From contig MKRX01000014.1 in the NCBI GenBank assembly GCA_001898035.1, forward strand, positions 13,874-60,681: a DNA stretch of 46,808 nucleotides. The letters are read 5' to 3'. The position numbers were made by a program, and so were the translations under genes. Under the pieces are notes generated by a model that saw only the letters and a program-made list of their open reading frames with translations, was not told the origin of the DNA and did no database searches. The stretch is from Armatimonadetes bacterium 55-13 (lineage in GTDB: Bacteria > Armatimonadota > Fimbriimonadia > Fimbriimonadales > Fimbriimonadaceae). This document shows positions 13,074-17,132 of this stretch, piece after piece. Every line of letters starts with the position of its first letter. Positions within the stretch are counted from its first letter, which is position 1.

Positions 13074-13115
13074 CCTAACACCTAACACCTAACACCTAAC
13101 ACCTAACACCTAACA
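13074..13115. repeat. CCTAACA heptanucleotide array, six copies
   Basis: Six exact tandem copies of the 7-bp unit CCTAACA (TGTTAGG on the other strand) run without mismatch. A partial copy follows (CCTCT), and a looser CCACGCTC-type run precedes it (13049-13072). It lies between the hemW start and the stop of an exported-protein gene, so it is intergenic and could vary in copy number by slippage. Confidence 0.9.
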
Positions 13116-13125
13116 CCTCTGCCCC

Positions 13126-13890: not shown

Positions 13891-14763
13891 CTAAGACCCC
13901 CCGGTCTTGATCCGGGTCGGAGAACCTTTGCCATCGGTAGGATCGGTTTGAGCAAAGAGGGTCTCGCCGTAGGGCAGGTTCACCTGCAACAGGTCCATAT
14001 CGAAAGTGACAAATCCGATCTGTTCACGACCATCAAAAGTGAAGTCTATCCGGTGCCCCTCAAACCTTTTTGTAAAGAGCGAGCCGGTGAATTTTCCTCC
14101 GACCTTAGCCTGAATCTTGACCACCCCGCCGGTAACCGGATCGAGACGAGAAAACGACTTCTCCTTGACCAGAACCTTTTCGCCATCGATCATCGGTTTG
14201 AATTCATTCGCAAAGAGTTCGACACCGCCCGCCGGATAGATCGTGGCTGTTCGCTTTCCCTTTGGCCCTGCGACTTCGATTTCAACTTCGTCTCCCTTAA
14301 ACGTCGCCTTGAGTTCATAGGTGCCCGATCCACTTCGGTAGCCACTGGTTTCAAAGAGAGGCGTCCCGTTTTCCGAAATCCATACTTTTCGGTATCGCTG
14401 CACCGGCGTGATGTTGATCACATTGATGCCATCGCTATTCTTGTAGTCGCGCCGCTTGTTGCGTGTAGCGTCCGACTCAAAAAGCAGGCACGGTTTCCCT
14501 TCGTAGACGGAACGACTCACTTTTGAGGCGCTAAATCCCACTGAAGTGGGTTCCTTGGCCATGGCATCCTTCGGATTTAGATCGTAGTAGCCACTCAAAT
14601 CGGTCCTTGGCCGACTAATCCTGGAAATACACTGGCTGAAAACCGTTGTGGGATGAAGCTTGAGCCCGATCGCCGATTCAAGATAGCCACCAAGATACGC
14701 TTCCTCTGGAATCGTCGTCTGCTTAGCCTGAGTCGCCAGAAGTAAGAGAGTCAGTCCCACCAT
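13891..14763 (-). CDS. Exported protein of the local paralog family (copy 1)
   Basis: This 290-aa protein starts MVGLTLLLLATQAKQ, a signal peptide. I chose ATG at 14763 (AGGTG eight bases upstream) rather than 14826, which would add 21 residues before the signal peptide. Key shared segments with copies 2 and 3 are RKVWISENG, KRTATIYPAGGVELF, FKPMIDGEKV, FSRLDPVTGGVV, VGGKFTG and the C-terminal RIKTGGS. No named domain is recognised. A secreted or periplasmic beta-rich protein is likely. It is directly followed by copy 2 with no gap. The 5' region has a decayed second copy at 15931-16014. Confidence 0.7.
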   Translation of the reverse strand: MVGLTLLLLATQAKQTTIPEEAYLGGYLESAIGLKLHPTTVFSQCISRISRPRTDLSGYYDLNPKDAMAKEPTSVGFSASKVSRSVYEGKPCLLFESDATRNKRRDYKNSDGINVINITPVQRYRKVWISENGTPLFETSGYRSGSGTYELKATFKGDEVEIEVAGPKGKRTATIYPAGGVELFANEFKPMIDGEKVLVKEKSFSRLDPVTGGVVKIQAKVGGKFTGSLFTKRFEGHRIDFTFDGREQIGFVTFDMDLLQVNLPYGETLFAQTDPTDGKGSPTRIKTGGS

Positions 14764-14879
14764 ACGAGCACCTGTACTAATATTAACGCAGGATTCATTC
14801 AAATATTCATTCGGAAACCGCGACAATCTGCGCTCCCTGAACCCCCAAAAACAATCGCCTCCCCGTTCTCAAGAGATCG

Positions 14880-15895
14880 CGCTCCAAATCCCACAACGCG
14901 CCACCGCACACCGAGCGAAATGTAGCCGACGGTCCTACCGTCGTGAGCGCTCCCGCCCTCAGAGCGCCCCCGTGAAAACCAGAACACCCCAAACCAAACA
15001 GCCCCCTAACCAACATCACACTCTAAAATCGACAACGCGCCACCAGCCACCGAGCGCAATGTAGCCGACGGTCCTACCGTCGTGAGCGCTCCACCCCCAG
15101 AGCGTTCCCGTCAAAGCCAGAACACCCCAAACCAGACAGTCCCTGACAAACATCACGCTCTAAAATCGACAATGCGCCGCCAACCACCGAGCGCAATGTA
15201 GCCGACGGTCCTACCGTCGTACGCGCGATGGCTAAACAGAGCGCCCTGAAACAGAACGCACCCACGTCAGGGGGACTGACGCCCACATCTCGCTCGGTGA
15301 TTATTCGCGCGTTACAGACCACAGAGCGCAATGTAGCCGACGGTCCTACCGTCGTACGCGCTCGGCCCAAACAGAGCGCCCTGAAACAGATCGCGCTCAC
15401 GTCAGGGGGACTGACGCCTACATCTCGCTCGGTGTCCATTCGCGCGTGATGTCCACAGAGCGTAATGTAGCCGACGGTCCTACCGTCGTACGCGCTCGGC
15501 CCAAACAGGGCGCCCTGAAACAGAACGCACCCACGTCAGGAGGACTGACGCCTACATCTCGCTCGGTGTCCATTCGCGCGTTACAGACCACAGAGCGAAA
15601 TGTAGCCGACGGTCCTACCGTCGTACGCGCGCGGAAAAACAGAGCGCTCTGAAACAGAACGCACCCACGTCAGGGGGCCTGACGCCTACATCTCGCTCTG
15701 TGATTATTCGCGCGTTACGAACCACCGAGCGCAATGTAGCCGACGGTCCTACCGTCGTACGCGCTTCCGCAAAACAGAGCGCCCTGAAACAGATCGCGCT
15801 CACGTCAGAAGGACTGACGCCTGCATCTCGCTCGGAGATTATTCACGCGTTACGAACCACAGAGCAAAATGTAGGCTACGGTCCTACCTCCAGAG
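14880..15895. repeat. REP/BIME-like tandem repeat array
   Basis: About 1 kb built from repeat units. Hairpin B (GCCGACGGTCCTACCGTCGT or near) occurs at 14925, 15064, 15201, 15336, 15470, 15605 and 15739, with a decayed copy at 15874. Spacing is 134-139 bp. From 15201 each unit also holds hairpin A (CGTCAG, 5-nt middle, CTGACG) in the opposite orientation, at 15265, 15400, 15534, 15668 and 15803. Both hairpins are mostly preceded by GTAG when read outward, as in REP elements, and each is flanked by CTACAT-like and CGCTCGGTG-like sequence. The first three units have a different spacer, found also at 1-99. Open frames through it are repeat artefacts. The stretch 15896-16139 holds no gene apart from a decayed fragment. 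Confidence 0.85.
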
Positions 15896-15929
15896 CGCCC
15901 CCGCCAACCCAGAACACCCACAGCGGCAA

Positions 15930-16295: not shown

Positions 16296-17132
16296 CTAGC
16301 TCCCACCGGTCTTAACCCGGAAAAGTCCAGCCTCGCCCGTCTTCGGTTCCACCATGAGCCGCTCGCCTGTCCCCAGGTCGAGCTGCAGGAGTTCACCCGT
16401 TTCGGAGACCCAGGCCGTGTCGAGATAAGTGCCTTGACTCAACTCCACCTGGACGCCCTTATAACGATCCTCGCCAATGAGACCCTCAAAAGTGCGAATG
16501 ACCTTGGCCGACCACAGGGAGAGCCCTCCCGAAAATGAGTCGAGTGTGGCGTACTCCTTCATTTCGCGTTTGATCTTGCCGTGGGAATACATGGCGAGAA
16601 ACTCATTCTCGAATTTCTCAGGTTGGACCGAAATCTCAACTTCGCCCCGCTGCGTCTTCTCGTCTTGAATTTTCGTGACGGCGAGGGTGCCGTTTTGAAA
16701 CAGCATATCGACCACGAATCCGTCGGGCTCCAGTTGCTCGTACCGGGTCTTGAGTACCGACCCCTCATCCCCGATCCAGACCTTGCGAACCCGAACGATG
16801 CGCCTCTTCACTCGCACGTCGTTCTGTCCCTCGCTCGGGTTATTGCCTAAAATATCTCGACTCGCCTTGGATTCCAGGCATAGGCAGCTAACCCCATCCA
16901 GGCGGGCCTCGCTAACCGTGGTTCGAGTCTCCCCCACACGTATCCAAGGATCGTTTGCGCTTTGTCGAACGCCCTTCGGGAAGTAGGCGGCAATCTTGCT
17001 CCGCCGCATGTAGAGCCCAAGAACCTGCTCAGGGTGTGGCCGCAAACCGCCAACAATCTCTGCCGCCCCGCCAAACACGGGCTCATTGGCCTTGCTGGCG
17101 ATCAAAAGAAGTCCTAAAAAAGCTGTAACCAT
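16296..17132 (-). CDS. Exported protein of the local paralog family (copy 3)
   Basis: This 278-aa protein starts MVTAFLGLLLIASKANEPVFGG, a signal peptide, at ATG 17132. It is the most diverged of the three paralogs. It keeps RKVWIGDEG, an EFLAMYSHGKI segment at the place of FKPMxxGKV, YATLDSFSGGL at the place of FSxLDPxTGG, LLQLDL near the end, and the C-terminal RVKTGGS, almost identical to copy 1. Its N-terminal EPVFGGAAEIVGGLRPHPE resembles EPVLGGQKQIILGLEAAPP of copy 2. It is separated from copies 1 and 2 by the repeat array. Function unknown. Confidence 0.7.
   Translation of the reverse strand: MVTAFLGLLLIASKANEPVFGGAAEIVGGLRPHPEQVLGLYMRRSKIAAYFPKGVRQSANDPWIRVGETRTTVSEARLDGVSCLCLESKASRDILGNNPSEGQNDVRVKRRIVRVRKVWIGDEGSVLKTRYEQLEPDGFVVDMLFQNGTLAVTKIQDEKTQRGEVEISVQPEKFENEFLAMYSHGKIKREMKEYATLDSFSGGLSLWSAKVIRTFEGLIGEDRYKGVQVELSQGTYLDTAWVSETGELLQLDLGTGERLMVEPKTGEAGLFRVKTGGS

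Follow-up and report, generated by a model that had tools for sequence, protein, structure and literature searches.

An array of short inverted hairpins in Armatimonadetes bacterium 55-13 is very probably a BIME of REPIN type that has its cognate REPtron on contig C25 and whose dimers are computed to fold as a clover through compensated stems. The array occupies positions 14909-15899 of the window, which is the whole stretch of 46,808 nucleotides analysed (C14:13874-60681 of genome G000, 4.53 Mb in 27 contigs). It is extragenic, between the ORFs 13891-14826 (-) and 16296-17132 (-), and has a tandem period of 134-139 bp. We read the locus as an extragenic BIME in which each full unit of approximately 135 bp comprises an S1 REP and, facing the other way, an S2 REP, so that GTAG lies at both outer ends. 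On this reading, the unit is a heterodimeric REPIN of approximately 115 bp, joined to the next by short linkers. The system is a further example of the known REP/RAYT type, and its mobilisation by a RAYT is presumed from the families involved.

S1 consists of GTAG, one base, and CGACGG-TCCTA-CCGTCG; S2 consists of GTAG, one base, and CGTCAG-TCCCC-CTGACG. Each is a short hairpin (6-bp stem, 5-nt loop) with an unpaired GTAG at its foot, as in GTAG-type REPs. The consensus left flank CACCGAGCGCAATGTAG is common to both, and the stems differ (CGACGG/CCGTCG vs CGTCAG/CTGACG). No match to either hairpin was found in shuffled windows. An earlier note on this DNA had described a REP/BIME array built from hairpins A (GTCAG stem, S2 here) and B (GACGG stem, S1 here), with different stems in opposite orientations. 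The description holds for the hairpins, which both carry GTAG and the same outer flank, and for the array as a whole, given its tandem period, the opposed hairpins, the genome-wide copies, and a RAYT with matching flanks.

The array contains seven intact S1 copies on the plus strand, located at 14909-14951 (64.8 bits) and 15048-15090 (64.2 bits), both with a degenerate S2 partner, and at 15185-15227 (63.0 bits), 15320-15362 (62.1 bits), 15454-15496 (62.5 bits), 15589-15631 (64.6 bits), and 15723-15765 (61.0 bits). A degenerate S1 copy (15858-15899, +, 19.2 bits) terminates it. Five S2 copies were found on the minus strand, at 15257-15299 (56.3 bits; CCAC replaces CTAC in the GTAG-type tail), 15392-15434 (66.2 bits), 15526-15568 (65.0 bits; loop variant), 15660-15702 (60.5 bits), and 15795-15837 (60.7 bits; loop variant). 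S2 was no longer recognisable in the first three units of the array. Elsewhere in the window, a lone S1 copy, in which GTAG reads GTTG, was found at 35-77 (+, 48.5 bits), and CCTAACA forms a perfect 7-bp tandem repeat of 6.4 copies at 13074-13118.

The family is distributed over the whole genome. A BLAST search of the genome with a 281-base probe returned 122 matches, and the motif GCGNNATGTAGNC matched 195 times, as against 7 matches for the reversed control pattern. In 349 kb of fetched stretches, which cover only the parts of the genome with matches, 86 S1 and 115 S2 copies were counted in 35 arrays, giving totals of approximately 200 copies and at least 35 arrays; further copies on C20 and C21 were indicated by a model search. 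The family is dispersed over more than 10 contigs. In the fetched stretches, the arrays lie outside convincing ORFs, and the ORFs that overlap some of them stem from a caller based on length only. Such a high-copy (~200), extragenic distribution is that of a GTAG-type REP. The array on the downstream side of the RAYT contains an assembly gap (L004 2216-2271), and contigs C1, C3, C5, C7, C13, C18, C19, and C25 end in this REP; hence, the number and length of the arrays are probably underestimated. Near S1/S2 copies on C18 (L046 10600-11360), relic-like GTAG hairpins with the stems CGCGGG and CGCTGG were observed, which are possibly remnants of older REP families.

Orientation and spacing followed a strict rule. 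Within arrays, 340 S1-S2 pairs were opposed and 10 were parallel; same-family pairs showed the reverse (322 parallel, 10 opposed). The step was 80-84 nt in GTAG-outside pairs and 52-53 nt in GTAG-inside pairs. Inverted REP pairs in regular modules are the hallmark of a BIME/REPIN, and because of the opposed orientation and the fixed steps, we take the unit to be a heterodimeric REPIN in tandem, arranged as in E. coli BIMEs (PMC2817692). A CRISPR-like or satellite tandem repeat with no tie to transposition would share the regular 135-bp period, but the motif strictly alternates between strands, arrays occur at scattered sites, and a RAYT has the unit beside it; these data already contradict such a repeat, which we regard as hardly credible.

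The genome encodes seven Y1 domains. One belongs to a RAYT of 181 aa at L004:1429-1974 (C25:51939-52484), the frame of which is intact and contains the PDHVH and Y-x3-N motifs. The protein matches Pfam Y1_Tnp and E. coli TnpA-REP (4er8, E 1.7e-7). Upstream of the gene, S2(+) alternates with S1(-); downstream, S1(+) alternates with S2(-). The Y1/HUH gene therefore has inverted REPs on both sides (S2(+) upstream, S2(-) downstream), which is the arrangement of a REPtron. The RAYT with matching flanks that the earlier note proposed to look for is thus present on C25, with S1/S2 REPs on either side. Of the 35 arrays, 14 are on the 82-kb contig of this RAYT, which makes up 1.8% of the genome (p 7e-16), a test weakened by its disregard of collapsed arrays and of contig breaks at REPs. 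The excess fits the report that new REPs arise near a rayt gene (PMC2817692). No S1/S2 was found in the 3.3-kb locus of the RAYT paralogue L005 (C26, 55% identical). Relatives of the RAYT in other genomes and phyla adjoin hairpins tagged GTAG, GTGG, or GGAG with quite different stems, and several of these loci have one stem per strand; since the scan required paired stems, it shows diversity and is no evidence of covariation.

Mobilisation by the C25 RAYT would not be needed if S1/S2 were an old REP family on which the RAYT is inactive and whose amplification now depends entirely on slippage during replication or on recombination among the 135-bp repeats. Copies are indeed more alike within than between arrays (identity of 0.913 vs 0.868 for S1 and 0.877 vs 0.840 for S2), as local duplication would give, and some units are degenerate. 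However, the presence of the family at 35 or more places on more than 10 contigs needs copying between sites, the stems and GTAG are almost invariant across the dispersed copies, and the frame and motifs of the RAYT are intact. Passive arrays of this kind are therefore considered unlikely. Spread and amplification of the family by the C25 protein, a single-strand transposase (RAYT/TnpA-REP), are very probable, although the 60 relatives searched all lack this REP and thus offer no pair of occupied and empty sites. This RAYT should recognise the GTAG tetranucleotide and the hairpin in single-stranded DNA.

The earlier note had also claimed that hairpin A covaries within the array, with CAG..CTG becoming CAGG..CCTG at 15668, and that stem shape rather than sequence is conserved. 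The change at 15668 proved to be a one-sided A-to-C substitution in the loop (the S2 copy at 15660-15702); the other units already carry the partner G, and the substitution adds one loop-closing pair. Seeming covariation inside one array should therefore be treated with caution. Copies were then gathered from the genome by the left flank alone, such that the stem was not preselected. Among these flank-anchored copies, GTAG was almost invariant, one-sided stem changes were found in 11 of 474 cells for S1 and 6 of 570 for S2, and no two-sided (compensated) change was found within S1 or S2. The rarity of the former and the lack of the latter indicate strong conservation of the stem sequence within each family, and the stem is among the most conserved parts of each.

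Between the families, the pattern is different. The S1 and S2 consensus sequences agree throughout the 17-nt left flank. Their stems differ at four positions, and these make up two compensated pairs; with four changes placed at random in the stem, the probability that every one of the six pairs stays intact is 0.0035. The layout recurs in a diverged relic unit at C13:92.1 kb, where the stems are CGGCGG/CCGCCG and CGCCGG/CCGGCG. With this unit added to S1 and S2, pair 3 is seen as AU, UA, CG, and GC; because the alignment was chosen by hand and includes the C13 unit, the statistics from shuffling it serve as an illustration and not as an independent test. The claim that shape is conserved over sequence, and the genome-wide covariation check attached to it, therefore fail within each family, where no double change occurs, and stand between families, as seen in S1 versus S2, the C13 relic, and the RAYT-linked REPs elsewhere. 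The outer flank arms showed no covariation within dimers: their identity in GTAG-outside pairs was 0.807, compared with 0.811 after shuffling, and it was below the shuffled value in GTAG-inside pairs.

These results also bear on whether the hairpins act as a transcribed RNA element (a terminator, an mRNA stabiliser, or a riboswitch-like structure) with selection on hairpin shape. The hairpins are extragenic, and in other systems REPs can act as transcript stabilisers or terminators (Di Nocera 2013; PMC3733652). Nevertheless, a search of Rfam gave no match at the gathering threshold, many arrays sit between divergent ORFs, and the stems within a family lack compensated changes, unlike those of a shape-selected RNA. 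The family is also absent from the 60 relatives searched, which include two genomes of the same genus, each only approximately 75% complete. Together, these observations make an RNA element very improbable, and a mobile REP family is the reading that we retain.

Folding offers a reason for the two stems. When 57 GTAG-outside dimers were folded as single-stranded DNA, both REP hairpins were kept in 91% of the natural heterodimers (mean probabilities of 0.93 and 0.88), and the fold was a clover, with an outer stem built from the paired shared flanks and two REP hairpins. In-silico homodimers, made by swapping the S2 core for S1 or the S1 core for S2, formed one long hairpin that was favoured over the clover by approximately 14 kcal/mol (12-16 kcal/mol), and 0% kept the REP hairpins; this collapse is partly foregone, since self-folding is expected of every perfect inverted repeat. 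The folding further showed that the natural differences between S1 and S2 suffice to lose cross-pairing while self-pairing stays. S2 alone folds weakly (-5.9 kcal/mol, z -0.8). All energies refer to equilibrium and leave out proteins and the order of folding. Beside other RAYTs, 17 compact heterodimers (8 loci) and 3 homodimers (3 loci) were found; both hairpins were kept in 10 of the 17 and in 0 of the 3, a small sample whose trend agrees with the clover reading. The compensated pairs would thus let each REP keep its own hairpin while pairing badly with its inverted partner, and stems unable to cross-pair well would lead the dimer to fold as a clover instead of a long hairpin.

The clover was proposed as the RAYT-readable form by Bertels and Rainey (PMC3116915). 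Di Nocera and others (2013; PMC3733652) saw no obvious reason why heterodimers are preferred and suggested protection from hairpin nucleases. We tentatively propose that heterodimeric REPINs may be selected: compensated divergence would abolish cross-pairing and favour the RAYT-readable clover over the long hairpin. Selection for non-cross-pairing stems, as such, would be one possible source of the two-stem system.

The system resembles several known ones. E. coli BIME-2 likewise has two REP types (Y and Z2) in alternating orientation and tandem modules, and the E. coli REPtron (yafM/TnpA-REP) has BIMEs on both sides of the RAYT gene (PMC2817692; PMC6006769). The S1/S2 stem and loop sequences differ from those of BIME-2, and the stems are short (6 bp); Y and Z2 differ also in loop length, whereas S1 and S2 differ mainly in two compensated pairs and loop bases. 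The heterodimers of the GTAG superfamily, as described in Di Nocera 2013 (PMC3733652), share the GTAG tag, the hairpin, the GTAG-outside (HH) dimers, and two stem variants. That study lists 24 families, subdivided by complementary stem residues; compared with the superfamily as presented there, the S1/S2 system stands out in that nearly all of its dimers are heterodimers. The REPINs of Pseudomonas fluorescens (Bertels and Rainey, 2011) are also inverted REP doublets and the likely replicating unit, and both the clover and the long-hairpin fold were considered for them (PMC3116915). In Pseudomonas REPINs, as described there, one REP is paired with an inverted copy of itself and a long hairpin is formed (PMC3116915), whereas the ends of the S1/S2 dimer differ and the clover is its computed minimum.

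Some Y1 domains were observed inside host genes. The large chain of carbamoyl-phosphate synthase is encoded by carB. In this genome, a RAYT-like Y1/HUH domain lies in frame within carB, between CPSase_L_D2 and L_D3 (L007, G000:C27:21163-24399), and inverted GTGG-tagged hairpins border the insert and are translated. An insert is present at this site in G000, G001, G006, and G003, which represent three genera (relatives' loci L120, L124, and L146). From AIRGLE to PTDERLW, carriers have 218-274 aa and six other relatives have 38 aa in total. Another Y1 domain of this kind lies in frame within a large ORF (L003, G000:C6:734961-738188, reverse strand), and the same-genus genome G002 has one at a similar place in the ORF (L117/L122); the host ORF is a putative GH38-type glycosidase. 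The differences between the hairpins that border the L003/L117/L122 domain, CATGGGCG-TCT-CGCCCATG and CATCGGCT-TCC-AGCCGATG, are compensated pairs. Other genomes of the order also carry Y1 domains of this clade (L121, L123, L125, L127, and L131); they lie in open frames 494-988 aa long, and the host differs from case to case. In a tree of the in-frame RAYT domains, most forks were open, and the tree fits one insertion as well as several.

With its pair of stems, its strictly kept orientation, and a single transposase that has matching REPs, this is a clean two-stem REP/RAYT system in a little-studied bacterial group. Should the reading of non-cross-pairing stems hold, it would tell why heterodimers prevail, a question still open in work on REPs, and it would provide a general rule that accounts for the heterodimer excess noted in 2013.
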